From positions 26,495-90,494 of the IMG/VR virus record IMGVR_UViG_3300033153_006744: a stretch of 64,000 nucleotides of DNA; one strand, 5' to 3'. Each line of letters begins with the position of its first letter. The first letter of the stretch is position 1. The stretch is from a virus. This document shows, one piece after another, positions 878-64,000 of this stretch. The translations under genes and the position numbers were made by a program. The notes beneath the pieces are model-generated. The model had not been told where the DNA came from and searched no databases. It saw only the letters and a program-made list of their open reading frames with translations.

Positions 878-885
878 TGTTACAC

Positions 886-2400: not shown

Positions 2401-2767
2401 AACTTATACTCTCTCTTTTATAATTATCATCTATTTTTGTTTCATAATCAAAGTTTATATCTTTACCATATTGAATATCTGTCACCTGTAATTCTCCAAC
2501 ATCTATAGTATCCCATACAAAATTAATTGACTTTTGTAACAAATAACGCATTTCCTGTATGTCAACGCTTTCCATTTTTTGGTGTCTATATAAATCCATT
2601 CCAGTTCCAATTCTACCATCCCATAGACATTCACCAACAACAGAGCCACTGCCCCCAACCATATCTATTAAAGATACAATATTATTTCCAATATTATCTT
2701 CTTCTTCAAGTGTGGCGATATTGTCGTAACCATAACTAAGGGGATATAAAACTGACAATTTTCTCAT
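2372..2767 (-). CDS. Baseplate wedge protein, gp25/Mu gp46-like
   Basis: A 131-residue protein in the position and size of the T4 gp25/P2 gpW/Mu gp46 family, which initiates sheath contraction at the baseplate. The N-terminus gives a turn-rich YPLSYGYDN stretch. The centre has the helix EMRYLLQKSINFVWDTIDVGE followed by beta strands, the usual gp25 layout of helices then a sheet. Assignment rests on this pattern and on gene order (spike, gp25-like, J-like). The start ATG overlaps the stop of the preceding gene (ATGA), so translation is probably coupled. Confidence 0.6.
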   Translation of the reverse strand: MRKLSVLYPLSYGYDNIATLEEEDNIGNNIVSLIDMVGGSGSVVGECLWDGRIGTGMDLYRHQKMESVDIQEMRYLLQKSINFVWDTIDVGELQVTDIQYGKDINFDYETKIDDNYKRESISYEWNYRSTS

Positions 2768-3405
2768 CCTGGAATACCTGCTATAAATGCCTTTAATTCT
2801 GTTATGATTTTATCAATATCTGTTAAATCAGATAAATCTATAGTTCCACTTAATCCAAAATCACTTAAATCAATTCCAATTATATCTGCTAAATCATTTA
2901 AAGTTTGTATTATGTTATTTATAACTCCAAGATTATCTAAATAAAAATTCATAGTATCATCTGGAATTGATTTTAAACATTCTTGTTGCTCTTCATCTAA
3001 GTACTCTAGGCCTAAGTTATCTGTCTCTATATTCCATGTTACAAGGGTTTCTAAGTCATTTATTATTTGAGTTAACACAGCCTTTAATAATCCAACTACA
3101 GAAATAATTAAATTTGGAATAGCAAAAACAGGGATAAAGCCAGAAAGTTTAGCTAAAGCTTTAGCAAACTCAATAACCGCATCTAAGAAGTCTACTGGAT
3201 CTGTAATGATTGAAGGAACAGCATCTAAAACGGCCTTTAGTTTAGCAAAAACATCTATAATTAAAAAAAGGGGTTTAAATGGCATTAAGATTGGTTCAAC
3301 TAATTGCAAAACATTGGGAACAGATCCTTGTAACTTTACAGATAATCCAGCTGGCAACTGTAAATCATAGTCAATTTGTTGTGTGTTTATTTTATTGCAA
3401 CTCAT
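2764..3405 (-). CDS. Hydrophobic tail-module protein of unknown function
   Basis: Unrecognised protein of 213 residues, counted from the ATG at 3405, which has a GAGG ribosome binding site; a TTG one codon earlier is also possible. Residues about 30-125 are mostly hydrophobic and helical (for example FKPLFLIIDVFAKL and FIPVFAIPNLIISVVGLLKA). They contain Asp/Asn/Pro breaks and no clear signal peptide. The C-terminus is a run of short acidic repeats (IIGIDLSDFGL, TIDLSDLTDID). It lies inside the baseplate operon between a membrane-anchored protein and the gp25-like gene. It could be a hub component inserted in the membrane during infection, but nothing in the sequence proves this. Confidence 0.6.
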   Translation of the reverse strand: MSCNKINTQQIDYDLQLPAGLSVKLQGSVPNVLQLVEPILMPFKPLFLIIDVFAKLKAVLDAVPSIITDPVDFLDAVIEFAKALAKLSGFIPVFAIPNLIISVVGLLKAVLTQIINDLETLVTWNIETDNLGLEYLDEEQQECLKSIPDDTMNFYLDNLGVINNIIQTLNDLADIIGIDLSDFGLSGTIDLSDLTDIDKIITELKAFIAGIPG

Positions 3406-4659: not shown

Positions 4660-5870
4660 TACAAAGTCCTTAATTTAGTTTTCCATTTACCTTCTTCAGT
4701 GTCAAAATAATTGATAATTTCAGTTTCCTTTTTCTTTTTAGTTGGTTGCTCACCTAACTTTCCATATTTCTTTTCATAATCAGGCGGCAACGCAGGTGTT
4801 TGATCTGTAAAAGTTTGAACATAACCATCGGTTTTTTTAGAAACTTTTTTTCTCTTAACCCTTTTTGGTGCTTGCTTTTGTAGTGTTATTTCAGTTAAAT
4901 AAGCTCCACTAATAACATGTTTAGCGTTTGTTAACTTATATAGCCCACTTAAAAAATCACCTATACCCCATATTCCCATATCTAAATTTCCAATAAGTGA
5001 GGCATTGCCTTTGACCGTGTATTTTAATTTTAAATTATTCATTGCACTGTCAATATACTTTGTTTCCATTAAATTTAAAGCTTCTTGTTCATTGTTAGCT
5101 GTTATATAGTCGGTATTTTCTTCAAACGTCTCACCACCCACTCCTTCGGCTCCATAAGTATATTGCTTTTCATTTGTAATAGTTTCTCCAACATCTTGAG
5201 GTACTTCTAGTTGATAGGTTTTATGATTTTTCATTAGATTAAATTCTAATCCTGTTTGCTTAAGTAGTTGATAATCTAAATCTTTGCTACCCTTAATGAA
5301 ATCAATTCTCCTGGCTTTCAGTTCTTGTCTATCTACAAAATGAAACCCTGCTGCATCTATCCAAAATTTACATCTTGTTTTTCTAGCTAATTGTTTTAAA
5401 AATATAGCATCAGTTGTATTTTGCACAATGCTTGTATATTCTATGTCTCTAGTCACATTAACATCTAAGTTTTGAAATGAATTTGCATAAGAAGTATCAT
5501 ACCCATGCTTTACTGCAATTGTCTCAACAATACCTTGCACTAATATATTTTCCCACGTTTCAAAAACTTTTTCCTTATTTAATAGATATGATTTTTCCGT
5601 AAACGTTAAAGTTAAGTTTTCACCCTGCTTGGCGTTTATTAAAATTAACCTTAATTCGTTACTTATAAAATCTTTTGTACCAAATTGTATTATATATTCA
5701 GTTTCCTTGTCAAACATTTCAGGGAACTCTAATAAAACATTATTGTAATTATGTAGAACTAAAGTTGCCTTGTTTGCTTTTTTTGCATCAAATTCAAACG
5801 TAAATGATTTAACATATTTATTTAAACCCAAACCAGCGTTATCTTTTATTTGAACTTTAACGAAAGGCAT
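4659..5870 (-). CDS. Tail hub protein, gpD/gp27-like (late control D family)
   Basis: A 403-residue protein fitting the gpD/Mu gp44/T4 gp27 hub family, the trimer joining tail tube and spike. The N-terminal barrel shows SFTFEFDAKKANKATLVLHN. The next domain begins FETWENILVQGIVETIAVKHG. The region TDAIFLKQLARKTRCKFWID is the diagnostic part of the family, followed by GFHFVDRQEL. The C-terminus is Lys-rich (KRVKRKKVSKK, TKKKKETE) and likely flexible. Its start and the preceding stop share TAATG, as does its own stop with the spike gene, so the hub cluster is tightly coupled. Confidence 0.75.
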   Translation of the reverse strand: MPFVKVQIKDNAGLGLNKYVKSFTFEFDAKKANKATLVLHNYNNVLLEFPEMFDKETEYIIQFGTKDFISNELRLILINAKQGENLTLTFTEKSYLLNKEKVFETWENILVQGIVETIAVKHGYDTSYANSFQNLDVNVTRDIEYTSIVQNTTDAIFLKQLARKTRCKFWIDAAGFHFVDRQELKARRIDFIKGSKDLDYQLLKQTGLEFNLMKNHKTYQLEVPQDVGETITNEKQYTYGAEGVGGETFEENTDYITANNEQEALNLMETKYIDSAMNNLKLKYTVKGNASLIGNLDMGIWGIGDFLSGLYKLTNAKHVISGAYLTEITLQKQAPKRVKRKKVSKKTDGYVQTFTDQTPALPPDYEKKYGKLGEQPTKKKKETEIINYFDTEEGKWKTKLRTL

Positions 5871-17648: not shown

Positions 17649-18391
17649 AAAGGGAGCTTTATACTCCATTTTTGTTTGCATTCTGGACAAGTAACACCTA
17701 CTTTGCCAAGAAAACCACAATCAAATTGATCTATTATAGCAGCTAGTTCAAACATTGTGTCGCCATCTAATTTTTTTAAGAAGCTATTTAGATCATTTTT
17801 TTCTACACCCGCTATTTCATCTATTGCAACCATTAAAGGTACATGCATACCACTTCCGTATTGTTTAATTAAATCATTTAATTTTTCTTCATCTTTCGCT
17901 ATAACCATGTGCCATGTTATTTTTCCAACACTAGAATCATCTATTCTCTTGTTTCCTTCTTGCAACATTTTAACACCCTCTGCACTCAGGAAAGTTCTTT
18001 CATTTAAAATGTCTTCTAAACTTAACTCTCTTACAAAAGGCATCCCGCCAAATTTACATGTTTTTCTAATACAATGTTGCTCAAATAAATAAGGTGATTT
18101 TTTAAAGTTTATCAGCCTTAGTATTACCATTAAATCTACAAAGTCAGCTCCAGTACATTCTTCTACTTTAAAGCCACCGCCTTTATAACTTGAATTAACA
18201 ACTTTGATAATACTAAGGCTAACATATTGATAAACAGCTTGCAAAAGTTCAGCATCATCCTTTTCAGATAATGTATTTATTTCTGCGACTGTTAATTTTT
18301 TAACTTCTAATTCTGTCCTTGAAGATAATTTATAAATGCTACCACTTTTAATTTCTATGTCTTCTTTTTTAATTTCTAATTTGTGCTCCAT
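17549..18391 (-). CDS. Tail assembly chaperone (G-like; gp26-type zinc ribbon)
   Basis: A 280-residue protein immediately after the tube gene, the usual chaperone slot. The N-terminal region is helical (ELEVKKLTVAEINTLSEKDD). A central region contains three further Cys (residues about 79, 107 and 112). Residues about 234-245 show CPECKQKWSIKLPF, a half zinc-ribbon element resembling baseplate-hub/chaperone proteins of T4-like phages (gp26 type). The slippery site lies just after this element, so a minor fraction of ribosomes would swap the last 32 residues for the longer -1 frame extension. The start is an ATG with GGAG. Confidence 0.65.
   Translation of the reverse strand: MEHKLEIKKEDIEIKSGSIYKLSSRTELEVKKLTVAEINTLSEKDDAELLQAVYQYVSLSIIKVVNSSYKGGGFKVEECTGADFVDLMVILRLINFKKSPYLFEQHCIRKTCKFGGMPFVRELSLEDILNERTFLSAEGVKMLQEGNKRIDDSSVGKITWHMVIAKDEEKLNDLIKQYGSGMHVPLMVAIDEIAGVEKNDLNSFLKKLDGDTMFELAAIIDQFDCGFLGKVGVTCPECKQKWSIKLPFSIQALIPSMDLRKEHAKLLKEYKNYPSVKIYK
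17648..17654 (-). other. Candidate -1 ribosomal frameshift site
   Basis: On the minus strand the codons CTC CCT TTT TCA contain the heptamer C CCT TTT, which fits X XXY YYZ for tandem slippage (Pro CCT to CCC, Phe TTT to TTT). It lies inside the 170-base region where both frames are open, and slippage gives exactly the frame of the 17298-17648 extension. Other A-rich stretches in the overlap do not fit the heptamer rule. Confidence 0.55.
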
Positions 18392-18418
18392 TAATCATTC
18401 TCCATAATTATTTAATTT

Positions 18419-18874
18419 TTAAGATAAGTTTAATCTTTTTGCATAAGAATATGCTAAAGAAAAGTTTTCAGTTGCTGCATCAGTGTTGCCAGTATCTCCG
18501 CCGCTTTCGCCATATTTAGAATAACAAGCACCGAATAATCTCCAGCCTTCTTTTTCAACACCGTTTGCATCAGTCCTAATTAAATCAACTGTAAATAGTG
18601 CCCCGCTTATGTTACCGCCAGACTCTGGACTTACTGGAGTTCTTGACTCAAAGTCATCCCAAAGGCTTTGATCTTTTACTAAAGCGTTTGTAACGTCAAT
18701 GGGTGTCCATGTTGCATCAACAGGTTCAACATGTGGATGTGGTCGACCACCCATTTTTACAGTCATTATGCTTGCTTCAACTTCAGGGAATCCCATAGTT
18801 AAAGCTGTTAAGATCTCTCTTCCATCTATTCTCATCTTAAAATATCTATTTGTATAAAATTTTGAATCAGCCAT
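18419..18874 (-). CDS. Tail tube protein
   Basis: A 151-residue protein directly after the sheath gene with the size and pattern of a contractile-tail tube protein, which stacks as hexamers inside the sheath. The N-terminus YFKMRIDGREILTAL and the segment TMGFPEVEASIMTVKMGG correspond to the tube's first strands. VDATWTPIDVTNALVKDQSLW is the central strand and helix. The C-terminal strand is ENFSLAYSYAKRL, the final 'v.l.....l.' strand of tube proteins. Gene order sheath-tube-chaperone is the standard one. The ribosome binding site is AGGAGTTTAAA. Confidence 0.75.
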   Translation of the reverse strand: MADSKFYTNRYFKMRIDGREILTALTMGFPEVEASIMTVKMGGRPHPHVEPVDATWTPIDVTNALVKDQSLWDDFESRTPVSPESGGNISGALFTVDLIRTDANGVEKEGWRLFGACYSKYGESGGDTGNTDAATENFSLAYSYAKRLNLS

Positions 18875-22225: not shown

Positions 22226-22254
22226 ATTATGCCAGTGAAATGCTAAAAAGTAAA
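22226..22254 (-). promoter_or_regulatory. Extended -10 promoter for the tail operon
   Basis: Minus strand: -35 TTTACT (22249-22254), 17-bp spacer ending in TGG, -10 CATAAT (22226-22231). Transcription would begin near 22219, leaving a leader of only about 12 bases before the ATG at 22206. It belongs to the same class as the tape-measure promoter at 9427. Confidence 0.65.
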
Positions 22255-24724: not shown

Positions 24725-25338
24725 GATTTTGAGAACTCCTTATTTCTAAACAAGTTTCCGAGTCCAGTAAATTGCTTTAACCTTAAGACCTCGTCCTTAT
24801 CCATCCCTAGTTGTTCACTTATCTTCTTGTCACTCCAGCCCATAAAATAAAGCTCTTCAACTATTTCACTCATAGATTGTATGCCATGCGTTCCTCTCGC
24901 CCTATTGTGTCTAATTGTACTAGCCATTCTTTCCTTTAAACTTTTTTCTATAACCACTAGTGGCAAATAGCCCTTGGTTCGTGTTTTTATGTCATCATAT
25001 TCCTTTCCAATTCTATTCCTGTGAAATCCATCAACAACAACATACTTATCTTGCTCTTTATCATAAAAAGATACAATTGGTTGAGTATATCCATCTTCTT
25101 TTATTGACCTATATAATAATTGCATTTCTGGAGGTGCAACCTTGTTTGGGTTGTAATTATTAGCCTTAACCCTATCTGCTTTTATCCACAAAACATTGCT
25201 GACTGGCTCTTCTTTAAGTGGGTTAATTTCGTTTAGTTTAGAATAAATGTCATTTAATAATTCTATCTTGTCATCTTGTTTTCTTATCTTCTTTATGTTG
25301 AAAATAAGTTCGTCAACCTTATCTAATAATTCTTTCAT
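24715..25338 (-). CDS. ibrB: IbrB-like ParB-domain protein
   Basis: A 207-residue ParB N-terminal-domain protein. Residues 100-107 give VVDGFHRN, the ParB/Srx nucleotide-binding motif. It is followed by HNRARGTHG (residues 144-152), the diagnostic IbrB element, and a helix-turn-helix (DKKISEQLGMDKDEVLRLKQ, residues 170-189). IbrB was described with IbrA in E. coli as a regulator pair of immunoglobulin-binding proteins. ParB-like domains can bind CTP and DNA; activity here is unknown. Its ATG overlaps the ibrA-like stop (ATGA), the conserved pairing. Confidence 0.8.
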   Translation of the reverse strand: MKELLDKVDELIFNIKKIRKQDDKIELLNDIYSKLNEINPLKEEPVSNVLWIKADRVKANNYNPNKVAPPEMQLLYRSIKEDGYTQPIVSFYDKEQDKYVVVDGFHRNRIGKEYDDIKTRTKGYLPLVVIEKSLKERMASTIRHNRARGTHGIQSMSEIVEELYFMGWSDKKISEQLGMDKDEVLRLKQFTGLGNLFRNKEFSKSWI

Positions 25339-26552
25339 TCTCCTAGCTCCTCTTTCATTTTATAATATTTTTCGTATTGATTTTTAGTTTGACCAAACGA
25401 CAAACTTTTACAGATTTTATCGTTCTTTAATATAACTTTAGCAAGCCTCCGCCATGATGGAGCCTTTTTAGAGCTTTCAAGTTTTTTGTCTGCTTCATCT
25501 GGAATTCCATCTGGATAACCATTTTTAGACCACCACCGAATAAATATCTTGAATTTTTGCCCATACCACTCTGCTTCAAATTTTGGAAGAGTTGCCATTA
25601 GAAAATTAACATAACTTTCCCATGTGTGATTTTTTGGCAATATTACCTTGTTGTTTCCTAATAAAAAGCTTTTGCAATATATGTTGCCAAAATTAGCTCC
25701 AGACACTCTATCAACAATTCTAGACCACGTTTCAGGTTCACACTGTCTAAATAAATTAAGACCTTTTCTTTGGTCATCTCCGTATGGCTGACATATTCTT
25801 GCTTCATGTATTGATAACCCCTGCATGTACATGAAATCATAAATTTTATTGTATGTATAGCTCTCGTTTCCAACAGAAACCCATATATCTTTAGTCTTCC
25901 AGTCATAAATAGGGTAAAAATTAAAAACATTCTCAACAATTTGAGTTGTCCACATTTTATCTTTATATATTTTTTTCTTCGTATTTTTAATGGTTCTATA
26001 TCTATTTAAACTTTCATCTGATCTTATTCCAACTCCACAGGCAATTTTTTCTTTTCCAACTTTGAACCACTCTGCAAACCTAACAACTAATTCTTCAAAC
26101 TCTATTCCTCTATGAAACCATTTCTCCCATTCTTTGGGCATGTTATTTTCGTTTATAACATATTTTGAATTAGGCATCGGCCTAACCCATTTATCTTCAT
26201 TTTCTTTATCCCAACAAATCCATTGTGGCTGGTAAACACTTACTGCATTTCTTAAATTTAAAGGCAAGCATAGCCAATAACCATCAATATCTTTATTGTT
26301 GAAAATTTCTTCAACATGCTTTATTGTAGACTTATACTGAGCCTCTAAGTCAATGAAAAGTATTTTTATTGGTATTTTGTTCTTTTTTTTCGCAATTTCA
26401 AGTGCTAGTTGAACCATTACACTAGAGTCTTTTCCGCCAGAAAAAGAAAAGCAAATCTCATCTTTGTCAAAGTTGTCAAAAATAAAATTAAGTCTTTCTA
26501 TTGCCTTGTCCCAAACATTTACTTTTGAATATGTTTTTGATTCACTGTTCAT
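25335..26552 (-). CDS. ibrA: IbrA-like PP-loop (PAPS reductase superfamily) protein
   Basis: A 405-residue IbrA-type protein of the DUF3440 kind. An ATP pyrophosphatase P-loop, CFSFSGGKDSSVMVQLAL, is at residues 34-51 with SGGKDS at 38-43, followed by ILFIDLEAQYKSTI. FYPIYDWKTKDIW and EARICQPYGDDQRKGLNLFR are the further conserved blocks of this family. The C-terminal WKYK-like IFIRWWSKNGYPDGIPDEAD is also typical. The domain activates substrates by adenylation or handles PAPS; the biological substrate is not known. It is the first gene after an early-type promoter, with AAGGAGG. Confidence 0.83.
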   Translation of the reverse strand: MNSESKTYSKVNVWDKAIERLNFIFDNFDKDEICFSFSGGKDSSVMVQLALEIAKKKNKIPIKILFIDLEAQYKSTIKHVEEIFNNKDIDGYWLCLPLNLRNAVSVYQPQWICWDKENEDKWVRPMPNSKYVINENNMPKEWEKWFHRGIEFEELVVRFAEWFKVGKEKIACGVGIRSDESLNRYRTIKNTKKKIYKDKMWTTQIVENVFNFYPIYDWKTKDIWVSVGNESYTYNKIYDFMYMQGLSIHEARICQPYGDDQRKGLNLFRQCEPETWSRIVDRVSGANFGNIYCKSFLLGNNKVILPKNHTWESYVNFLMATLPKFEAEWYGQKFKIFIRWWSKNGYPDGIPDEADKKLESSKKAPSWRRLAKVILKNDKICKSLSFGQTKNQYEKYYKMKEELGE

Positions 26553-37761: not shown

Positions 37762-38457
37762 TTAATAACCTGTTTGCTTGTTTTGGATATGGAGTGCATT
37801 TAAATAGTCAAAAATAAGATGCATATTTCTGTCACTTAGTTCTTTTTCTTTTCTTACATCTTGAGCTAATGTTGTTATGCTTTCCGCTAATGATTCAGGT
37901 ACTTGCTTCATGCCTAAGCTATCGAATAATTCTTTTATTGATACCCAACCTTCGTCATGTGGGTATTTTTTGCCTTGCTCTCTTGATGCTTCATTGTCTT
38001 CAATTTGGTTGGCGTCATTTGAATATTGGTCAATGCTGAAGCCATCTATTAATGAATCTAAATTATTAAGTTGTTCTGAGCTATAGGGCATTGTTTCCAG
38101 TAACTCATCTGTATCAAACTCTTTCTGTAACTCACTTATTATATCTACTAACTTGTTTTTATCACTTTTAAACCTAGTCTCGTTGGTCTCAATGGCTATT
38201 CTTTTGGCTTGGTTTTCCGTAATATTGCCTAAATTATAGCACATAACTTTATCATAGTTTAGTTCATTAAGAACATCTAACCTATGGTTGCCATTAACCA
38301 TTTCATAGGAATCTTCTTCTAACTCCCTAACTATGACACTTTCAATGAATCCATTTCTAATGATGTTTGATTTAAGCTTTGACCTTAATTCTTCATTGTC
38401 TTCTTTATAATTCCATTCAGCTTTAATTATTTTATTCAACTCAATTTCTTTAAACAT
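37762..38457 (-). CDS. ParB-domain protein (paralogue of the ParB-methyltransferase)
   Basis: A 231-residue protein from the ATG at 38457 (AGAGGTTAAA site). The N-terminal 125 residues match the upstream ParB-methyltransferase throughout: WNYKEDNEEL, VIVRELEEDSYEMVNGNHRL, MCYNLGNITENQAKRIAIET and NETRF. The motif VNGNHRLD (about residues 47-54) is the ParB/Srx loop. The C-terminal 100 residues are different, helical, with no enzyme motif. It lies 1 bp after the methyltransferase gene and probably arose by duplication of the 5' part. Role in DNA binding or regulation is inferred. Confidence 0.75.
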   Translation of the reverse strand: MFKEIELNKIIKAEWNYKEDNEELRSKLKSNIIRNGFIESVIVRELEEDSYEMVNGNHRLDVLNELNYDKVMCYNLGNITENQAKRIAIETNETRFKSDKNKLVDIISELQKEFDTDELLETMPYSSEQLNNLDSLIDGFSIDQYSNDANQIEDNEASREQGKKYPHDEGWVSIKELFDSLGMKQVPESLAESITTLAQDVRKEKELSDRNMHLIFDYLNALHIQNKQTGY

Positions 38458-38458
38458 T

Positions 38459-39859
38459 TTAACCTCTAGTTTTATCAAATTCTTCTTTTATATCTTTAAA
38501 GTCTATTGTTTTGCTGTTTCTTATTAATTTAACATCATTAAAATTAGCTTTATGTTTAACATATCTATCTACAATTATATCGCAATATTTTTCATCCAAC
38601 TCCATTCCATAGCAAACTCTTTTTAATTGTTCACTTGCAATAATCGTTGTTCCACTACCGCAAAAAGGCTCAACAACTATATCTTTTTCTTTTGTAAACA
38701 TTGCAATAAATTCAGCAGGTAATTGAACTGGAAAAACCGCTGGATGGTCAGTTTTATTGCTTTTCTCCACTCCAATGTTAAAAACTGTTCCTTGAAAACC
38801 ATATTTATTTATATTGTGGCACACTGTATCTTCTATATGTCCTTTTTTGGCTCTTTTTACTGTTTTCATCTTCGCCGTCTCATAATATGAGTTTATTTTA
38901 GTGCGATTTTTTTCTTTGATTTCTTTGCCAAAAATAAAAATCCATTCATGCCATACGGGGATAAAGGCGGTTTCGTTGCCAATAGAACCAGAGTTATTTC
39001 TATTCCATATGCTCCAACTTAAAAACTTTAAATTTTCCTGTTTTGCTTTGTCAATATAAGTGTTCCAATAAGGGAATATTTCATTATTTTTTCTTTGCAA
39101 TCCAAGATTAATAATTTGATAGTTTACATATTCTCTGTATGTTTTAATAAAATTAACAATATTATCAACTTTTAAATCCTTTTCTCCATTATATTCTCTC
39201 ATGTCACTATAAGGAGGGCTAGTAAACAACATTTTAGATGTTTCGCCGTTCATCAGCTTGTTAACGTCTTCTTGACTTGTACTGCTACCACATAACAATC
39301 TATGTTTTCCCAATATCCATATATCCCCTTTTTTAGTATATGCAGCCTTCTTAATGTTTTCAGTAAAATCATCTTGCTCAACTTGCTTATCCTCTAAAAC
39401 ATCTAAGCCAACATTTTCTTCACTTTCATAATCTTCTAATTCTAAATTAAAATCTAAATCATCATCAGCAAAATCTAAAACATCATCAACGATTGTATAG
39501 CTGAGGTCTTCTAGTCCAAAATTATTTGATATATCATTGATTAAATCCGTTAATTTTTCCTCATTAACGCCAAACTTTGTTTCATTTGTTTCTATTGCAA
39601 TTCTTTTAGCTTGGGCTAATGATATGTTACCCAAATCATAACACATTGTATGTTTAACCTTTAACTCTCTTAAAATATCTAGCCTATGATTTCCATTTAC
39701 CACTTCATATTTATTTTTACTTATTTGCCTTACAATTATGTTTTCAATAATGCCATTCTTTTTTATATTGTTTTTTAATTTTTGGCTTAATCTTTTGTTT
39801 TCTTCTTTATAATTCCAATCCGCCTTGATTAATTGATTTATCTTTATGTTTTTAAACAT
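38459..39859 (-). CDS. ParB-DNA methyltransferase fusion (beta-class)
   Basis: A 466-residue two-domain protein. Residues 1-120 are a ParB-like domain with VVNGNHRLD (53-61) and NISLAQAKRIAIETNETKF. Residues 178-440 are an adenine/cytosine-specific DNA methyltransferase of beta order, with motif IV first: LFTSPPYSD (211-219), the substrate-binding DHPAVFP (371-377) and motif I EPFCGSGTT (397-405). The SPPY form of motif IV is compatible with N4-cytosine or N6-adenine methylation. ParB-MTase fusions are common in phages. It overlaps the Cas6-like gene's end by 8 bp and shares its promoter. Its target sequence is unknown. Confidence 0.85.
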   Translation of the reverse strand: MFKNIKINQLIKADWNYKEENKRLSQKLKNNIKKNGIIENIIVRQISKNKYEVVNGNHRLDILRELKVKHTMCYDLGNISLAQAKRIAIETNETKFGVNEEKLTDLINDISNNFGLEDLSYTIVDDVLDFADDDLDFNLELEDYESEENVGLDVLEDKQVEQDDFTENIKKAAYTKKGDIWILGKHRLLCGSSTSQEDVNKLMNGETSKMLFTSPPYSDMREYNGEKDLKVDNIVNFIKTYREYVNYQIINLGLQRKNNEIFPYWNTYIDKAKQENLKFLSWSIWNRNNSGSIGNETAFIPVWHEWIFIFGKEIKEKNRTKINSYYETAKMKTVKRAKKGHIEDTVCHNINKYGFQGTVFNIGVEKSNKTDHPAVFPVQLPAEFIAMFTKEKDIVVEPFCGSGTTIIASEQLKRVCYGMELDEKYCDIIVDRYVKHKANFNDVKLIRNSKTIDFKDIKEEFDKTRG

Positions 39860-46169: not shown

Positions 46170-46745
46170 ATGTCTTTAACTTATCAAGAAATTAACAAAA
46201 ATTATGACTTACAAGATTTATCAGGCGAAGAATGGAGGGATATCAAGGGTTTCGAGGGGTTTTACCAGGCAAGTAACTTGGGTAGAATAAAGGGGTTAGA
46301 CAGAATAGTGTCACAAGGGATTAGAGTAAATGGAAGGATAATGAAGCCTAGAATAAGTCGAGCTGGCTACCCAATGATCGGGTTGCGCAAAAATGGATTA
46401 CATAAATCCATAGAAGTACACACGCTGATAGCTAAAGCATTTATTGAAAAACACCAAAGCAAGAAGAAACTAATAGTTAATCATAAAAATGGGATTAAGA
46501 TAGATAATAGATTAGGAAATTTAGAGTGGAGCACCTATTCAATGAACCTAAAACATGCTTACGATAATAACCTAAGAGGGTCTAAAGATAAGCACCCCAA
46601 CGCTAAACTAAGCAAAACACAGGTTGAATTCATAAGGGCAAATAAAGGTAAACTTACTTATTCATATTTAGCAAAATTATTTAATGTGTCATTTGAGACT
46701 ATATCATGTGTGATGAGAAATAAATATTACAATTATGACAAATAG
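46170..46745 (+). CDS. HNH homing endonuclease (NUMOD4-HNH)
   Basis: The only plus-strand gene. 191 residues: an N-terminal NUMOD4 motif (GEEWRDIKGFEGFYQASNLG with the following RIKGLDR), an HNH core (VHTLIAKAF and VNHKNGIKIDNRLGNLEW, residues 83-120), and a C-terminal helix-turn-helix (LTYSYLAKLFNVSFETISCV). This is the domain order of free-standing phage homing endonucleases. It cuts a specific site and copies itself by recombination. It lies between the terminase block and an early operon with its own promoter and palindromic leader, and looks like a selfish insertion. Confidence 0.88.
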   Translation: MSLTYQEINKNYDLQDLSGEEWRDIKGFEGFYQASNLGRIKGLDRIVSQGIRVNGRIMKPRISRAGYPMIGLRKNGLHKSIEVHTLIAKAFIEKHQSKKKLIVNHKNGIKIDNRLGNLEWSTYSMNLKHAYDNNLRGSKDKHPNAKLSKTQVEFIRANKGKLTYSYLAKLFNVSFETISCVMRNKYYNYDK

Positions 46746-47128: not shown

Positions 47129-48826
47129 TTAATCTTTTCCAACATAGAAAATGTTAATATCTGCAAGCCCAACTTCAGGATCAAAATAAAATTCCTTATA
47201 TACACCAAACCCCAATTGAGAAAAAGCATCTACTAAATCTTTCTTACCGTCTTTTGTTGTGCCTGTAAATGACTCTAATTGCTTAACTAATGCTTTCTTT
47301 GTGTAATGTCTTTTGGTTCCAAAGTCTACACCATTTTCATAAAGCATGTCACTCATAAATACTATTCTTTTTTGATACATTAGAGGTGAAACATATTTTA
47401 ATCTCACCTTCTTTTCTTTTAGTGGCTTCATTTTAATAAAGTTAATTGGCAATTTATCAGTATCTAAGCTTTTAAAATAATCAACTAAAGATGTTTGATA
47501 ACCTGTGCTTTCTACAAATACAGCTTGACAATGTCCCTTAAGCTGCCTGAAATCTCTTTTAATTAAGTTAACCTGCTCTGGCATACTTGCAGTCATGGAA
47601 TACGCATCGTATATGTATAGCGTTCTATCTATCATGTTGTAAAAGCCCTTTACGCAACCGAAATGATCACTATCTGGTCTATTTTCATTAGCTAAATCAT
47701 AGCTTAGGAAAAATCTTAAATCTTCATTTTGACTTATTACTTCTATATCTTTCAAATCAACATAATTAATCGCAGTTGGTCTTAATATCTTTTCTCCATC
47801 TGATATAGTTCTTAATTTATATCCTCTGTCAAATTCAACTGGATCATTCTCAAATTTTTGTTTGAATATTTTTCTTGTCCATTTCGGGTACCAAATTGGC
47901 TTTAAATCATCTTCAATGTTGTACACAACAGTGTGGTAATCGCTTCTTTGAGATATTTCAGAACTTAAGTCTTGCTCACTCCATGGTGTAGCAATATATA
48001 CAACTTTTCCAGCCGTGGCAGTAATGTGTTCCCAGTCTGCGTTCCAAGCTTTTTTTACTGTAGTTATATAAGAAGGTGATTGCAGGGCATTTTTAAACCC
48101 AACTATATCATCTACCATTACCCATGATGCACGCCCTCCAGTGTTTGAGCCAAGTACTGAACATGCCTCTAATGTTGGCTCCTTATTAATTACCTCTCTT
48201 ACAATCTCAAGACTCTTGGTAGACCAATTGCCCTTGCTTGGTTTTATGTGTGGAAATATGAGTCTAAACCTATGGTTTCTTTCTATGGTTTGCATAACAT
48301 ACCTAGATCTTTTTACACTATCCTCCCCTGTTGCTGTTACAAATTTAGCTAACAAGTTTATATCATGTCCTAATTCAAATAAAAATCTAGGCAGTATCTG
48401 ACTGGTCTTTGCAGATTCTCTATGAGCCATTATAAACAATCTATTGTAATTTGTAATTAAGTGTTGCCATTCTTTATGAAACCACGCTTGGCATATATTA
48501 TGTGTTGCATCATCTGAAACAAACTCTATGAAAGAATTTACATCTGTCCTAGCGTTGAACTTTAGCATCTCCATTACTCTAAATAAATAATCTTTTAAGC
48601 GATTATCTTTTGGAGCCATAGACAAGTCTATAAACCCACCTTGAAATGTAAACAGTGAGCTTTTGGTGTATTGAAATCTACTAGAAACATCATCAGGGTG
48701 TGGCACTGGAGGAATTAGGTAATATTTTTCTATATTCCAGTTCTTTTGAAGCTCATTCCATATTTCATTTACAGAATGATATCTGTAATCTTGCATTAGA
48801 TTATGTATTACTGATACTAGGTGCAA
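47129..48826 (-). CDS. Terminase large subunit
   Basis: A 565-residue DNA-packaging ATPase/nuclease. Walker A-type motif FIMAHRESAKTSQ (residues 131-143) and Walker B ASWVMVDDIVGF (233-244). A coupling motif YIATPWSEQD follows. The nuclease domain shows FFLSYDLANE (Asp 377), YIYDAY and the C-terminal KKDLVDAFSQLGFG (final acidic residue). It starts at a TTG with AAGGATTAAT six bases upstream. The ATG ten codons in has no such site. The gene is separated from the portal gene by some 10 kb of small genes. A TerS candidate lies at 54035-54943. Confidence 0.85.
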   Translation of the reverse strand: MHLVSVIHNLMQDYRYHSVNEIWNELQKNWNIEKYYLIPPVPHPDDVSSRFQYTKSSLFTFQGGFIDLSMAPKDNRLKDYLFRVMEMLKFNARTDVNSFIEFVSDDATHNICQAWFHKEWQHLITNYNRLFIMAHRESAKTSQILPRFLFELGHDINLLAKFVTATGEDSVKRSRYVMQTIERNHRFRLIFPHIKPSKGNWSTKSLEIVREVINKEPTLEACSVLGSNTGGRASWVMVDDIVGFKNALQSPSYITTVKKAWNADWEHITATAGKVVYIATPWSEQDLSSEISQRSDYHTVVYNIEDDLKPIWYPKWTRKIFKQKFENDPVEFDRGYKLRTISDGEKILRPTAINYVDLKDIEVISQNEDLRFFLSYDLANENRPDSDHFGCVKGFYNMIDRTLYIYDAYSMTASMPEQVNLIKRDFRQLKGHCQAVFVESTGYQTSLVDYFKSLDTDKLPINFIKMKPLKEKKVRLKYVSPLMYQKRIVFMSDMLYENGVDFGTKRHYTKKALVKQLESFTGTTKDGKKDLVDAFSQLGFGVYKEFYFDPEVGLADINIFYVGKD

Positions 48827-49160: not shown

Positions 49161-49880
49161 TTAGTTTAATCTTTTCAAATCTAATATAGGTGATTTCCCA
49201 ACCATGTCACCAAAGAACTCTAATTTCTTTTTAATAATTCTATATATGTCTTTGTAGCTTAAGTTGTCATTCATTCCATCTTTTAATGCTTTTTCAACTA
49301 TTCCATTTGCTACCTTTAAATATGACAATTGAATGTGATTCAAAAGATCTCTTATGTTTTCATATTTTTGCTCGATAAAAAAAAGAGCCTTATATTCTGC
49401 CTTGGTTATATTGGAATAATAAAATTTTGCATTCTTTGAGCCTTGCTTAGTTGCATATTCTACGAATTTTTTTATTACATTAGTTTCTAGTAATCTGGTT
49501 TCTTTTGTTTCTTGTCTTGTTTGGAGCCAGTATGTATTGTTTTGATTAGATGCAAATCTTATAATCATTTTCCTAGCATTAGAGAAAGCCTTTATTAAGT
49601 TAACTTTAGCTTGTTTAACTTTTTCATTGTTTCGGTAAAATGTTAAAAGTAAATATGCTTGATCCTCGTTTAATTCATAAATCTTATATTGTTGCCCTGA
49701 AGACTCGGTTCTAAACCGAGCCTTTAGTTTTCCTATTTGCTCAAAATATTGCCTATTGTCTTCTATTAATTCGTTTGTATTTAAACGATCTTTTCCTAAC
49801 TCAAGTGCCACTACCTCTGAACTAACGCGGGCTTCTTCTTTTTTTTTGTTAATTGTAACTAAATCTTTTTCTTTAGACAT
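49161..49880 (-). CDS. Rha-like phage regulatory protein
   Basis: A 239-residue protein with the Rha family opening ARVSSEVVALELGKDRLNTN (about residues 17-36), followed by QYKIYELNEDQAYLLLTFYR, NEKVKQAKVNLIKAFSNARK and a helical C-terminal domain. Rha proteins (pRha) are phage regulators; in P22-like phages the Rha protein interferes with infection of cells lacking IHF. It is alone behind its own consensus early promoter with a hairpin leader. A regulatory role is inferred from family and promoter. Confidence 0.72.
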   Translation of the reverse strand: MSKEKDLVTINKKKEEARVSSEVVALELGKDRLNTNELIEDNRQYFEQIGKLKARFRTESSGQQYKIYELNEDQAYLLLTFYRNNEKVKQAKVNLIKAFSNARKMIIRFASNQNNTYWLQTRQETKETRLLETNVIKKFVEYATKQGSKNAKFYYSNITKAEYKALFFIEQKYENIRDLLNHIQLSYLKVANGIVEKALKDGMNDNLSYKDIYRIIKKKLEFFGDMVGKSPILDLKRLN

Positions 49881-49911
49881 AACTGCTCCCTCCCTATTGT
49901 AAGAATAAACA

Positions 49912-49976
49912 CTCTCACAATCCTGATCAGGGAAGGAGAGCTACATCATTATATAGGTGTTTTGGTGTAATGTCAA
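49912..49976 (-). promoter_or_regulatory. Early-type promoter with palindromic leader for the Rha-like gene
   Basis: Minus strand: -35 TTGACA (49971-49976), 17-bp spacer, -10 TATAAT (49948-49953). Right after the start near 49941 comes an interrupted inverted repeat CTCTC...GAGAG (49912-49940) around the perfect palindrome CCTGATCAGG (49922-49931). This hairpin differs from the AAAAGGT-loop family and may be an operator. A GGGAGGGAG site follows. Confidence 0.65.
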
Positions 49977-50010
49977 GGATTATAGTTAGTTATTTTGTGA
50001 GTTTCGTTGC

Positions 50011-54943: not shown

Positions 54944-54985
54944 AACAACTCCTAGCTGATTACACACACATAGTTTACCATAGTT

Positions 54986-55066
54986 GGTCCATTTTTGCAA
55001 ATCTAGGGGGTCCATTTTTACAGGGGGGTCCATTTCTGCAAATACAAGGGGTCCATTTTTACAAAT
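54986..55066. repeat. Four iteron-like direct repeats
   Basis: Four direct copies of a 14-17 base unit, on the plus strand GGTCCATTTTTGCAAAT with small changes, start at 54986, 55009, 55027 and 55050 (spacing 23, 18, 23). They lie just upstream of the HTH protein gene and overlap the end of the gene at 55059. Spaced repeats beside a DNA-binding gene may form an operator, a replication origin or a packaging (pac) site. The GC-rich GGGGTCC core contrasts with the AT-rich surroundings. Confidence 0.65.
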
Positions 55067-55457
55067 CGCTTAAAAGTTCCATTTTATTTTTCTCTATATA
55101 ATCTTTCAACTTACTGATTTTACCCAACAAAACATACTTAAAGTCATCGTGCCTGTGAACATGATAAGGAACACTAAATATTACACTTACAATAGATGTT
55201 TTATTGTTATCATCTAAAACAGGAACAGCACGCATATATTCAAAAGATCTTTCTACATCAAACACACAAGAGCAAAGATAATTTAAACTTATCACTAAAG
55301 ATTTAATTGCTTTAGATTTAACTGCATATATTATTTCATAATCTTTCAGCATCACTAACATCTTAAAAAAGTACTTCTTTTGTTTTTCTGTATAACTTTT
55401 TCCATCTGGTAAATTTCTTAATATTTGTTTTGCTCTTGCTGTTGTTAGTTTTTTCAT
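55059..55457 (-). CDS. Unknown protein, 132 residues
   Basis: From the ATG at 55457 (GGGAGACAAC), 132 residues. N-terminal helical region (LTTARAKQILRNLPDGKSYT; YFFKMLVMLKDYEIIYAVKS) and a beta/helical C-terminus with VSVIFSVPYHVHRHDD. The C-terminal codons overlap the last iteron-like repeat. The HVHRHD segment is His-rich but no metal-site family is evident. Role unknown. Confidence 0.55.
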   Translation of the reverse strand: MKKLTTARAKQILRNLPDGKSYTEKQKKYFFKMLVMLKDYEIIYAVKSKAIKSLVISLNYLCSCVFDVERSFEYMRAVPVLDDNNKTSIVSVIFSVPYHVHRHDDFKYVLLGKISKLKDYIEKNKMELLSDL

Positions 55458-55471
55458 GTTGTCTCCCTTCA

Positions 55472-55645
55472 TTATTTCTTTGATTTTGACTTTCCTATGT
55501 TTCTTCTTTGTTGTTTTTCCATTTGCCTTAACTCTTCATCACTATAGTTACATCCACTTCCACTTGTAAATCGCATGGTTATTATAACTCCCAATATTAT
55601 TACAGCTATAATAACTAAAACATCGCTTAACTTAATTTTGTTCAC
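55472..55645 (-). CDS. Small membrane protein, 57 residues
   Basis: Gene of 57 codons starting at a GTG (55645) with GGAGGCCAG nearby. The protein has one membrane helix (VLVIIAVIILGVIITM, residues about 9-24) and a charged cytoplasmic or periplasmic tail (YSDEELRQMEKQQRRNIGKS). The stop lies just before the next gene's start. Single-span small proteins of this kind are frequent in early phage regions; function unknown. Confidence 0.5.
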   Translation of the reverse strand: MNKIKLSDVLVIIAVIILGVIITMRFTSGSGCNYSDEELRQMEKQQRRNIGKSKSKK

Positions 55646-59506: not shown

Positions 59507-59833
59507 TTATTTTCTATATTTTTCTTTTAAATATTTATGTTTTATTCCAGATACATAAGCTCCAGTAACTCCAATTTTCTCAGCTATCCAAGCAGGCCTT
59601 TTCTCCTGTTTTATATATCCTATAATTAATTTTTTTCTTTCATCTTTTTGTTTTGTTAAAATGTTATCTGTTAATTTAATGCCATTTTTCTTTAAATATT
59701 TCCCTATAGTCATTACAGAAAGCCCTAACTCTTTAGCAATATCTTTAACTTTAATCCCAGCTTTATACATCTCAATCATTTTATCTTGTGCTTCTTGTGA
59801 TTGAGCTTGTTGTCTTCCTCTTTTGTTAGTCAT
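59507..59833 (-). CDS. Double helix-turn-helix protein
   Basis: From the ATG at 59833 (GGGGACTTAAAA), 108 residues. The first HTH is IEMYKAGIKVKDIAKELGLS with the following VMTIGKYLKKNG (resolvase/Hin-type). A second HTH-like stretch follows (PAWIAEKIGVTGAYVSGIKH). The N-terminal basic tail (TNKRGRQQAQSQEA) may enter the DNA groove. A transcription regulator is likely. Its start overlaps the preceding CxxC gene by 8 bp. Confidence 0.65.
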   Translation of the reverse strand: MTNKRGRQQAQSQEAQDKMIEMYKAGIKVKDIAKELGLSVMTIGKYLKKNGIKLTDNILTKQKDERKKLIIGYIKQEKRPAWIAEKIGVTGAYVSGIKHKYLKEKYRK

Positions 59834-60113
59834 TTTTAAGTCCCCATTCGCTATTTTTATTTTTTTGACATCTATTTTCAAATTTAGACTCGCCACAACA
59901 AGAGGCGGCACCCCCCATTACAAACCTCGCGCTATGTTTGCAGTTTTCGCAATTCTTCATTTTCTCAATCCGCTCTTTTAATTTATCATTCTCATCAGAT
60001 ATTAAATATCTTATTTCACATTGCGTATTTTCGTTTTTCTTGCATAACTCAATTTCATGTTGCAATTCTTCAATCTTTAAGTTTAAGCTTTCAAAAATTT
60101 GTTTGTCGTTCAT
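59826..60113 (-). CDS. Small coiled-coil/CxxC-module protein
   Basis: From the ATG at 60113 (AAGGAGATATAAC), 95 residues: coiled coil (FESLNLKIEELQHEIELCKK; ENDKLKERIEKMKNCENCKH) then NCENCKHSARFVMGGAASCC and ENRCQKNKNSEW. It shares ATGA with its upstream neighbour's stop. It is one of three adjacent paralogues (59826, 60110, 60922) that share the KIEKM-x-N-C-x-N-C-K hinge. Confidence 0.6.
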   Translation of the reverse strand: MNDKQIFESLNLKIEELQHEIELCKKNENTQCEIRYLISDENDKLKERIEKMKNCENCKHSARFVMGGAASCCGESKFENRCQKNKNSEWGLKND

Positions 60114-61310: not shown

Positions 61311-61436
61311 TTATCCTTTTAATTTGTTTCTAGTTTCTCTTAATGTTTTAGCTCTATCCTTTATGAATTTCTCTTTTTCTTCTTTTGTTAAACTATCATA
61401 ATATTCAGTTAAACTGTGAGACTTAAAACTTAAATG
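61311..61436 (-). pseudogene. Truncated copy of the HTH gene at 63467
   Basis: The minus-strand codons read HLSFKSHSLTEYYDSLTKEE, continue as KEKFIKDRAKTLRETRNK, then end LKG-stop. They are identical to the start of the visible HTH gene at 63467-64000 over 114 bases (61323-61436). There is no start codon in frame; a GTG with GGAGGTGAG lies upstream but in a different frame, and a stop follows within eight codons. So the fragment is frameshifted at one end and cut at the other: a remnant left by duplication or recombination. Confidence 0.6.
61323..61436. repeat. 114-bp direct repeat, copy 1
   Basis: Identical base for base to 63887-64000. The other copy runs to the window edge, so the true repeat could be longer on that side only if it also continues past 61436, where this copy changes to a T-rich tract. 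Confidence 0.85.
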
Positions 61437-61465
61437 TTTTTATTGTTTTCACATCTCACCTCCAC

Positions 61466-61541
61466 GGGTAACACATCAATTTTGTCCTAACCATATATTG
61501 TGTTATTTATAAAATTATAAAACGCCATCAACGTGTTACCC
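61466..61541. repeat. Inverted repeat GGGTAACAC
   Basis: GGGTAACAC (61466-61474) and GTGTTACCC (61533-61541) form a 9-base inverted pair separated by 58 bases in a short gap without a gene. Flanking bases (ATCA, TGAT) extend partial symmetry. Candidate protein-binding pair near the truncated gene; no T-run follows, so not a terminator. Confidence 0.35.
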
Positions 61542-61549
61542 TATATAGA

Positions 61550-61780
61550 TTAAAATCTTCTAGCCTTTAAATATTCTTTAAACTCATCTGTGCTCAATCT
61601 GGTAACATCAAATGTTGTGATTGATGTGTTTCTTTTAAAATATTCCCTTGTCTCTTTATTTTGATAAATGCCATATTCAGAGTCAAATAACTCAACAGTT
61701 CCGATGTAATCAAAATGTTTCGGGTTGTGAGCTTTGTCAAAGCCTACTACGTTATATAAACCTAATGCACTAAAAATCAT
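61550..61780 (-). CDS. Unknown protein, 76 residues
   Basis: A 76-residue protein with AAGGAGGTAATT at the start. Sequence MIFSALGLYNVVGFDKAHNP then YIGTVELFDSEYGIYQNKET, ending with FDVTRLSTDEFKEYLKARRF, a small alpha/beta fold. No family. The leader contains the TGAGCAA hairpin at 61816-61831. Confidence 0.55.
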   Translation of the reverse strand: MIFSALGLYNVVGFDKAHNPKHFDYIGTVELFDSEYGIYQNKETREYFKRNTSITTFDVTRLSTDEFKEYLKARRF

Positions 61781-61815
61781 AATTACCTCCTTAATAAAAT
61801 TAACAAGCAGCTTAA

Positions 61816-61831
61816 AGACTTGCTCATGTCT
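61816..61831 (-). promoter_or_regulatory. Leader hairpin with TGAGCAA loop
   Basis: Minus strand AGAC-ATGAGCAA-GTCT, four pairs with an eight-base loop, between the stop at 61841 and the ATG at 61780. Matches 45820-45835 in loop and layout with one compensatory change. A weak TTGGAA-17-TTATTT promoter-like pair lies upstream within the previous gene. Confidence 0.4.
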
Positions 61832-61840
61832 GATTAAAAA

Positions 61841-62116
61841 CTATTTCCAAATAACATATCCAAAAGTTTTATTCCAATCTCGACTACAAGACATATAAAA
61901 ACCGTCATATCCTTGCTCTTCATGTTTTTTCAATTCTTCTGTAGTCATGTCAAAATAAGATATGTCTAAGTTAGGGCGTGCTTGTCTTAAAAACTCAACT
62001 TGACCTTTTCTCGAAGCTATTGTTTTAAGCCCTTTTATTAGACTTAAAATTTCTTCTACACTTTTGTCAAACATTATTGCATTTTCAATTGCATTTAATT
62101 TTTCTTGTCTAGTCAT
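61841..62116 (-). CDS. Unknown protein, 91 residues
   Basis: A 91-residue protein: helical first half (TRQEKLNAIENAIMFDKSVE; ILSLIKGLKTIASRKGQVEF) and aromatic second half (DISYFDMTTEELKKHEEQGY; YMSCSRDWNKTFGYVIWK). First gene behind an early-type promoter with hairpin; leader AAAGGAGATTAAG is the same as before the cargo operon's first gene. No family recognised. Confidence 0.58.
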   Translation of the reverse strand: MTRQEKLNAIENAIMFDKSVEEILSLIKGLKTIASRKGQVEFLRQARPNLDISYFDMTTEELKKHEEQGYDGFYMSCSRDWNKTFGYVIWK

Positions 62117-62140
62117 CTTAATCTCCTTTAATTACTTTTT

Positions 62141-62202
62141 AGTTAAGAACCTTTTCCTTAACTCTATATATGCAATATAATGTATTTTGAGGTAATTGTC
62201 AA
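62141..62202 (-). promoter_or_regulatory. Early-type promoter with leader hairpin (before 62116)
   Basis: Minus strand: -35 TTGACA (62197-62202), 17-bp spacer, -10 TATATT (62174-62179). Hairpin with outer stem AGTTAAG/CTTAACT (62141-62163) and loop GAAAAGGTT. The downstream leader is almost identical to that of the cargo promoter at 29061. Confidence 0.72.
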
Positions 62203-62253
62203 GTAAAATGTTAAATAAAATTGAAATAAAATGAAACAAAGTGTAAGCCGTTG

Positions 62254-62463
62254 TTATTGCTTAGTGTTTTCTGCTTCTTTTTCTTTGTATTTCAGCCATG
62301 AATTAAACATTTTTAAGATCTCATCATAACCTCTTTTTTTTGCTATGCTATATGGGCTTTCACCGTCTTCTTTTTTCTTGCAATCTGCACCCTGTTTTAA
62401 TAGGGTTTTAATTAGGTCTGTGTTTTTATAGAAGACTGCTTCCATTAGTTTAGAGTATTTCAT
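62254..62463 (-). CDS. Small ankyrin-repeat protein
   Basis: From the ATG at 62463 (AAGGAGGACAA), 69 residues. YSKLMEAVFYKNTDLIKTLL and KQGADCKKKEDGESPYSIAK with the following KRGYDEILKMF make about one and a half to two ankyrin repeats ('LM.A.....d.vk.LL..GAd...kd..G.sp...A...g'). Ankyrin repeats mediate protein contacts, so binding of a host protein is plausible. Its ATG overlaps the preceding stop (ATGA). Confidence 0.65.
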   Translation of the reverse strand: MKYSKLMEAVFYKNTDLIKTLLKQGADCKKKEDGESPYSIAKKRGYDEILKMFNSWLKYKEKEAENTKQ

Positions 62464-62600
62464 TTGTCCTCCTTGAGAACCCACTTTAAAGCGTTAACTA
62501 CACTAATTATACTAAACCAGTCATCGCTCCCATGCTCATAATCATTTTTTTCTTTTTCTAATTCTTCTATATATTTTAGTATCTCTTCTCTACTCTTCAT
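62460..62600 (-). CDS. Small acidic helical protein, 46 residues
   Basis: Short gene, ATG at 62600 with GAGGTGCTTAA upstream; its TGA overlaps the ankyrin gene's ATG. Sequence MKSREEILKYIEELEKEKND then DDWFSIISVVNALKWVLKED, two helices. It overlaps the end of the 62590 gene by 11 bp. The chain of overlaps supports coding. Confidence 0.5.
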   Translation of the reverse strand: MKSREEILKYIEELEKEKNDYEHGSDDWFSIISVVNALKWVLKEDK

Positions 62601-63465
62601 TTAAGCACCTCTCTAGTTCATCAGTTATAACGTGCCACCCCTTCAACTTGTGATTTTCTCTTTGCATAATCATCCATTGCAATGTTTTTTTTGTGGCAAA
62701 TAAGAATCTTTTTTGAATGTAGTTAATTGGCATCATGTCAGTTAACGCGTTTTCAAATTCAAGCTTTGCCACCTCAATATTTAATTCTTTTTTAACATAA
62801 CTTTTATATTTCTTCCAAGCTTCCTTATCTTTCAAAATATGTATTCTATGATTTAAATCTCCTAAACTTTCACCGTCTATAAGCCCCTCAAAATCACTAA
62901 AAAAAAGCGGCCTGTCAAGTATGTTGTGCATGGTGCTAGTAGACAACGTAACAGTATCTTTCTTGTAGGTGTCAATTTGCTTCCATAATTTCAAAGTTGC
63001 ATCTATTTCAAAGAAATAATAGCTTTCACCACAATATTCAGCCTTAACTTTTTCAATGAATTTTGTGTCAATTTTATCATAGCTTTGATGCGCTGCCCTA
63101 CAAGCCCTCATGAAGTCAAGGGGAACGAAATAGCGAGCATTTGTTAAGTTTAGCGCCCTTTTTATGATACTTTTTGAAACATTCTCACTATCTTCTGGTT
63201 CAATTTTACAGAAGTCTGAAATTGTGTGTCTCATGCTAATAAATTTAGGTTGATTTTTATAAATCTTTGCAAACAACCTTAAAATTTTTGAATGCGGGTG
63301 ACAATCAACCCAATCGTCACCAAATCTTTCACGCCCTCTTTTGTTCAATTTTTCATCTTCTTTAATCAAGCGTAAAATTAATTTTAGGTCGTTTTCCCCA
63401 CTTTCAAACCGATTGAGGTAGGGGTGTTTCTCGGTAAACTTGTCGATAAGCTTAACTTTAGTCAT
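62590..63465 (-). CDS. Unknown protein, 291 residues
   Basis: A 291-residue protein with no recognised family. Alpha-helical throughout with a His/Trp-rich part (RERFGDDWVDCHPHSKILRL; PKFISMRHTISDFCKIEPED), a central KVKAEYCGESYYFFEIDATL and a C-terminus with YIQKRFLFATKKTLQWMIMQ. No Walker, HNH or methylase motif. ATAGGAGTTTAGT site. It follows the HTH gene at the window end and starts 2 bp before that gene's stop. Possibly replication- or regulation-linked, but this is only position. Confidence 0.55.
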   Translation of the reverse strand: MTKVKLIDKFTEKHPYLNRFESGENDLKLILRLIKEDEKLNKRGRERFGDDWVDCHPHSKILRLFAKIYKNQPKFISMRHTISDFCKIEPEDSENVSKSIIKRALNLTNARYFVPLDFMRACRAAHQSYDKIDTKFIEKVKAEYCGESYYFFEIDATLKLWKQIDTYKKDTVTLSTSTMHNILDRPLFFSDFEGLIDGESLGDLNHRIHILKDKEAWKKYKSYVKKELNIEVAKLEFENALTDMMPINYIQKRFLFATKKTLQWMIMQRENHKLKGWHVITDELERCLNEE

Positions 63466-63466
63466 A

Positions 63467-64000
63467 CTAAACTCCTATATTGTTATTTTTAAAATATTTA
63501 CCTAACTTTCTTAACGCCTCTTTCTCTATATACCTTATCATGTCAACCGATAAGGTCTTTTCTTCATAACCTTCTTCATATAATTTTATTGCAACTTCTT
63601 TTAATGTAGCTGCTTTTGTTTTTAAATTAGACTTAGCTTGATAATAAATTTTATGATTTCGTTCTTTACTTTTCACGCAAGCAACTGTGTACTTTTTAAT
63701 ACCGATCTTTTTTGCGATTTCAGAATTATTCAAGCCACTTTTCGCCATCTCAATTATTGCATTGTCTCTGTCCTCTATTGCTTTAGATTTCTGTTTTCTT
63801 GGAAATGAAAAGCCTTCTTTCTTTAAGAAATTCATAACAGTAACCCTAGTTAGTTGCACAGCCTTTGTTATATCTTTTAATGCAGCTTTGTTTCTAGTTT
63901 CTCTTAATGTTTTAGCTCTATCCTTTATGAATTTCTCTTTTTCTTCTTTTGTTAAACTATCATAATATTCAGTTAAACTGTGAGACTTAAAACTTAAATG
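63467..64000 (-). CDS. HTH DNA-binding protein, partial (N-terminus outside window)
   Basis: Open frame of 177 residues that enters from beyond the right edge; a GTG at 63859 is only an internal codon. The charged helix RNKAALKDITKAVQLTRVTV with MNFLKKEG forms a first HTH. NAIIEMAKSGLNNSEIAKKI with GIKKYTVACVKSKE is a second, resolvase-type HTH (residues about 90-120 of the visible part). The tail is basic. Likely a transcription or partition regulator. The first 114 bases inside the window are repeated exactly at 61323-61436, where they form a truncated remnant. Confidence 0.65.
   Translation of the reverse strand, partial: HLSFKSHSLTEYYDSLTKEEKEKFIKDRAKTLRETRNKAALKDITKAVQLTRVTVMNFLKKEGFSFPRKQKSKAIEDRDNAIIEMAKSGLNNSEIAKKIGIKKYTVACVKSKERNHKIYYQAKSNLKTKAATLKEVAIKLYEEGYEEKTLSVDMIRYIEKEALRKLGKYFKNNNIGV
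63887..64000. repeat. 114-bp direct repeat, copy 2
   Basis: Exact copy of 61323-61436, running to the window edge. It encodes the visible N-terminal part of the HTH gene. The repeat distance is 2564 bp, enough for homologous recombination that would delete or duplicate the genes between. Confidence 0.85.

Follow-up and report, generated by a model that had tools for sequence, protein, structure and literature searches.

Tandem repeats at the predicted promoter of an orphan phage gene, a probable self-regulating operator

Four direct, GC-rich repeats are located immediately upstream of a phage gene (54035–54943, − strand) that encodes a basic, K/E-rich protein of 302 aa, probably a rod-shaped DNA binder. 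On balance they probably serve as an array of operator sites on this gene's promoter, bound most likely by the gene product itself, and the locus would most likely represent a fairly ordinary arrangement, a self-regulating switch at the gene's own promoter. If this is right, an orphan phage protein gains a testable function as a self-regulating DNA binder together with a defined binding site, and a phage case would be added to the helix-turn-helix (HTH)/coiled-coil autoregulators with tandem-repeat operators, the tested example considered here being a plasmid protein; our understanding of replication and packaging would be left unchanged.

The window analysed here comprises 64,000 nt of IMG/VR record IMGVR_UViG_3300033153_006744 (bases 26495–90494), and positions without a prefix refer to it; G000 denotes the coordinates of the 90,494-bp record. 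The first and last 101 bp of this record are identical (G000 1–101 and 90394–90494, the latter being the window end), so the phage genome maps as a circle of ~90,393 bp. Its GC content is ~31%, and the annotated genes that were kept lie on the − strand with the exception of one HNH gene (46170–46745) and spurious overlapping ORFs. Searches for a close phage relative with the large terminase subunit (TerL), portal, capsid and tail-sheath proteins and with a TerL alignment yielded distant ones only, or none.

The repeat array

The four units, all direct and with the consensus GGTCCATTTYTRCAAAT, begin at 54986, 55009, 55027 and 55050. This bears out the initial annotation, which had reported four units with 23-18-23 spacing just upstream of the gene: the spacing is exact and the array gives the top Tandem Repeats Finder score of the window (128, period 41, 89% match). 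The spacing amounts to a 41-bp two-unit block present in two copies that are 89% identical. Read on the + strand, unit 1 (GGTCCATTTTTGCAAAT, 54986–55002) holds the −35 box of a predicted − strand promoter, the 3′ part of unit 2 (GGTCCATTTTTACAGGG, 55009–55025) has diverged, and unit 3 (GGTCCATTTCTGCAAAT, 55027–55043) is followed by unit 4 (GGTCCATTTTTACAAAT, 55050–55066), which overlaps the stop codon (55061–55059) of the upstream gene (55059–55472, − strand; 137 aa, no family match). The array thus reaches from this stop codon towards the ATG at 54943 and ends 42 bp short of it. It has a GC content of 42% compared with ~31% for the genome, and contains four of the eight GGTCC/GGACC (GGWCC) sites of the genome. 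Few such sites (4) occur beyond the array, and the genome lacks GGATCC altogether against ~4 expected, which perhaps reflects restriction avoidance.

The array is unique in the phage. The pattern GGTCCATTTNTRCA occurs four times in the 90,494-bp record, each time within the array, while the reversed control pattern has no occurrence. In a position-weight scan the four units reach 27–33 bits, scores that are partly circular because the matrix was built from these same units; the next best place scores 13.7, and 20 Markov-random genomes did not exceed 21. No fifth unit rose above the random-sequence level anywhere in the record, a result free of this circularity. Plasmids yielded no match to the array, and phages a single one at chance level. 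A search of viral contigs with the two-unit DNA pattern returned only two near-identical contigs, in which the match falls on a terminator-like hairpin behind a large ORF, and this match was put down to chance. The unit may also resemble the ends of IS21-type transposons; no transposase was found nearby, and the idea was dropped.

A mechanical ORF call starts the gene at the ATG at 55033, within the repeats, and thereby produces a longer ORF running through them. This start has no ribosome-binding site, whereas the ATG at 54943 is preceded at 5 nt by AGGAG (54949–54953, − strand, read directly). We have therefore taken 54943 as the start of the 302-aa gene, and most likely the repeats do not encode protein. 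At the RNA level, the structure predicted for the leader did not go beyond that of shuffled sequences (z = 0.49) and no Rfam match was obtained; the lack of excess structure argues against an RNA-level element.

Promoter and product of the 302-aa gene

The putative promoter of the gene (54972–55000, − strand) is of the extended −10 type, with a consensus-like −35 box TTGCAA (55000–54995) that sits inside repeat unit 1, a 17-bp spacer ending in TGG, and TAAACT (54977–54972). The match is modest, 4/6 and 4/6 plus the TGG, and we estimate from promoter-scan counts that a promoter-like match of such a score has an ~8% chance of occurring in the 115-nt gap. The same TGG/17-bp layout is common to intergenic promoter-like sites at 22254, 37720 and 40506, a likeness that was spotted post hoc. 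With a modest match and a shared layout found in this way, the promoter stays a prediction. A 10/12 promoter-like site at 55109–55081 was discarded as it corresponds to the chance expectation in an AT-rich region. In many operons of this phage the promoter is close to consensus (TTGACA-17-TATAAT), and a conserved leader often accompanies it. The 302-aa gene has no such promoter, and its control accordingly seems to be different.

The near-consensus promoters form a family with members at 62202, 57607, 46032, 44644 and 29119 in the window (− strand) and at G000 20566, 14987, 8116 and 836. Between them and the unrelated genes that they precede lies a short conserved leader (type GTTAAG-N-AAAAGG-TTCTTAGC) in which a small hairpin is possible. 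The Rha-like and Ant-like regulator genes have another leader in common (49881–50010 and G000 4807–4902), in which an inverted repeat, GCTCTCCTTC ... GAGAGC, separates the promoter from the start codon.

The 302-aa product (~35 kDa, 16.5% K, 14% E) has a pI of 8.9, and its first 90 residues a pI of 9.5. By eye, residues ~26–66 have the look of a homeodomain-type HTH, and the Pfam scores for HTH_32 (E = 0.014) and HTH_7 (E = 0.12) are both far below the cut-off. Single-sequence AlphaFold predictions (two models, without relatives) gave no compact HTH. They did give long helices at residues 79–141 and 178–267 joined by a low-confidence linker at ~142–177 (low-confidence model, pTM 0.21), and the protein is predicted to be mostly helical; its heptad-like periodicity is no more than moderate. 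The HTH described initially is thus weakly supported. Nothing above chance was found in Pfam, PHROGs, NCBIfam or the PDB, where solved structures gave chance-level matches only. Likewise, no relative turned up in viral contigs, GTDB genomes or phages; the viral-contig and GTDB scans require exact short peptides, which distant relatives can escape. Since no relative was found, the binding and the regulation are inferred.

An operator and its likely binder

The initial annotation had left the choice between a replication origin, a packaging site and an operator. An autoregulatory operator fits best because unit 1 holds the −35 box of the only promoter that is plausible for the gene; packaging fits poorly, and an origin is suggested by nothing but the repeats themselves, with a better candidate elsewhere in the genome. 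In favour of the operator we counted that the array is unique, that it fills the gap between the upstream stop codon and a point 42 bp ahead of the ATG, that unit 1 contains the −35 box in a layout shared with three other intergenic sites, that the gene seems to be controlled differently from many other operons, that the product is basic and predicted to be mostly helical, and that a tested plasmid precedent (below) has a like anatomy. Against it stand the weakness of the promoter, the sub-cut-off HTH and the fact that no relative shows gene and repeats travelling together.

In the mechanism that we infer, the promoter would be in use and the 302-aa protein would act on it by repression and not by activation. 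The protein would form a coiled-coil dimer or oligomer and read the GGTCCATTTYTRCAAAT units with its N-terminal HTH; as the 41-bp block, present twice, corresponds to ~3.9 helical turns, alternate units would lie on nearly the same face of the DNA, which would favour cooperative occupation. Once unit 1 is occupied, the TTGCAA box would be covered and the promoter shut, resulting in negative feedback.

The nearest tested analogue of the phage locus, in our view, is KfrA of the IncU plasmid RA3, a protein with an HTH and a long alpha-helical tail that represses its own synthesis through its own repeats (PMC7783346). Its operator OK consists of 9-bp repeats in the intergenic gap before kfrA with an embedded −35 box; the motif is unique in the plasmid, and four repeats suffice for KfrA binding (PMC7783346). 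The phage repeats similarly lie just before their own gene, overlap the predicted −35 box and are unique in the replicon. The phage protein may have an N-terminal HTH, and a long helical tail is predicted for it at low confidence. On the other hand, RA3 is a conjugative plasmid whose operator has 9-bp units, five in all with two of them inverted relative to the other three, whereas the phage has four 17-bp units that are all direct with 23-18-23 spacing. KfrA_N (PF11740) had no match in the 302-aa protein at E ≤ 0.1 over the full length or at E ≤ 10 in the N-terminal part. By sequence the protein is therefore outside the KfrA family, and the likeness is one of working and not of membership.

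The operator might also be bound by another HTH protein or a Rha/Ant protein of the phage, or by one from the host, which would then activate or repress the 302-aa gene. The phage does encode DNA-binding proteins with better scores, at 59507–59911 (HTH_7, E = 2e-10), 63467–63859 and 49161–49880 (Rha), together with an antirepressor-like protein (L007:4012–4806), and the −35 box has three of the four units upstream of it, a position that activator sites can take. We nevertheless consider such another binder unlikely: a regulator of several promoters would be expected to have further sites, none of which was found in 90 kb, and this single-site specificity favours a local, self-acting regulator.

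Replication, packaging and maintenance

Four tandem units beside the gene for a putative DNA-binding protein could also be the iterons of an initiator whose gene is the adjacent one, as with lambda O or in iteron plasmids, and the right flank of the array is AT-rich (27% GC). The lambda origin has four iterated sites of ~18 bp, a number and size close to the four 17-bp units here. However, the lambda O sites are near-palindromes that lie within the O gene with an AT-rich element beside them, while the phage units are asymmetric, lie in an intergenic promoter region and adjoin a gene without initiator homology. The 302-aa protein matches no replication initiator family, the recognised genes of replication and recombination, for a helicase loader (L007:17196–18164), Erf and RuvC, are elsewhere on the circle, and the most AT-rich segments and the two exact DnaA boxes all lie away from the array. 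Directly upstream of the helicase-loader gene is an AT-rich noncoding stretch of ~500 nt that has short repeats of its own (G000 ~18190–18700), and this region is a better candidate, in fact the best one, for the origin. An origin at the array is possible but, to our mind, improbable.

The proposal that the 302-aa protein is a small terminase and the repeats cosB- or pac-like sites has a precedent in lambda, where several R sites of cosB are located just upstream of the nu1 gene, whose product gpNu1 is an HTH protein with a helical tail. The phage locus shares with it several repeated sites just before a gene for a protein with a putative HTH and helical tail. Unlike in lambda, the gene is not adjacent to TerL, and its product is larger and unrelated by family search. 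The large terminase gene was found where it had been placed at the outset, some 5 kb away: TerL (47129–48826, − strand; PHROG 38, E = 5e-45) is ~5.2 kb downstream of the 302-aa gene and weakly resembles the T7-type model NF033889 (E = 6e-17, below its cut-off). Adjacency to TerL is usual for small subunits, if not universal, and here 13 genes intervene between 48826 and 54035. Small terminases generally consist of an HTH followed by helices and have a mass of ~15–21 kDa (PMC9611059); the ~35 kDa protein, with its two long helices and linker, shares the plan but has nearly twice the usual size, and it matches no small-terminase family. In Bacillus phage BSP7 and Weizmannia phage Youna2, whose TerL enzymes are 23–25% identical to that of our phage, a gene overlapping the TerL start is likely to encode the small subunit, and BLASTP against this putative TerS of BSP7 detected no similarity to the 302-aa protein. 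Even though the surroundings of TerL revealed no other small terminase, the array is quite unlikely to be a packaging site.

KfrA-type proteins also aid plasmid stability through the same repeats (PMC7783346), and a bolder version of the analogy would see in the locus a system for maintaining or segregating a phage-plasmid, autoregulated as in KfrA, in which a coiled-coil DNA binder with no known relatives silences its own promoter and organises the genome via one array; we regard this as highly improbable. We give even less credence to the idea that the locus serves a phage-plasmid for maintenance or partition in the manner of a plasmid and autoregulates besides, as KfrA does: the record maps circularly and the scanned proteins revealed no integrase, but no ParA-like gene either, the ParB-like domains (37762–39859) are parts of a DNA methyltransferase and of the paralogue next to it, and many virulent phages would be expected to map circularly just as well.

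Elsewhere on the genome, a DUF3440/IbrA-like PAPS-reductase-family gene and genes for ParB-domain proteins, one of them fused to the DNA methyltransferase, are present at 25335–26552 and 37762–39859, respectively. A diverged duplicate gene cassette with stretches of 86–90% identity occupies G000 1–3000 and positions 61336–63900 of the window, which adjoin across the circle junction, and one of its gene pairs is just 28% identical at the protein level.
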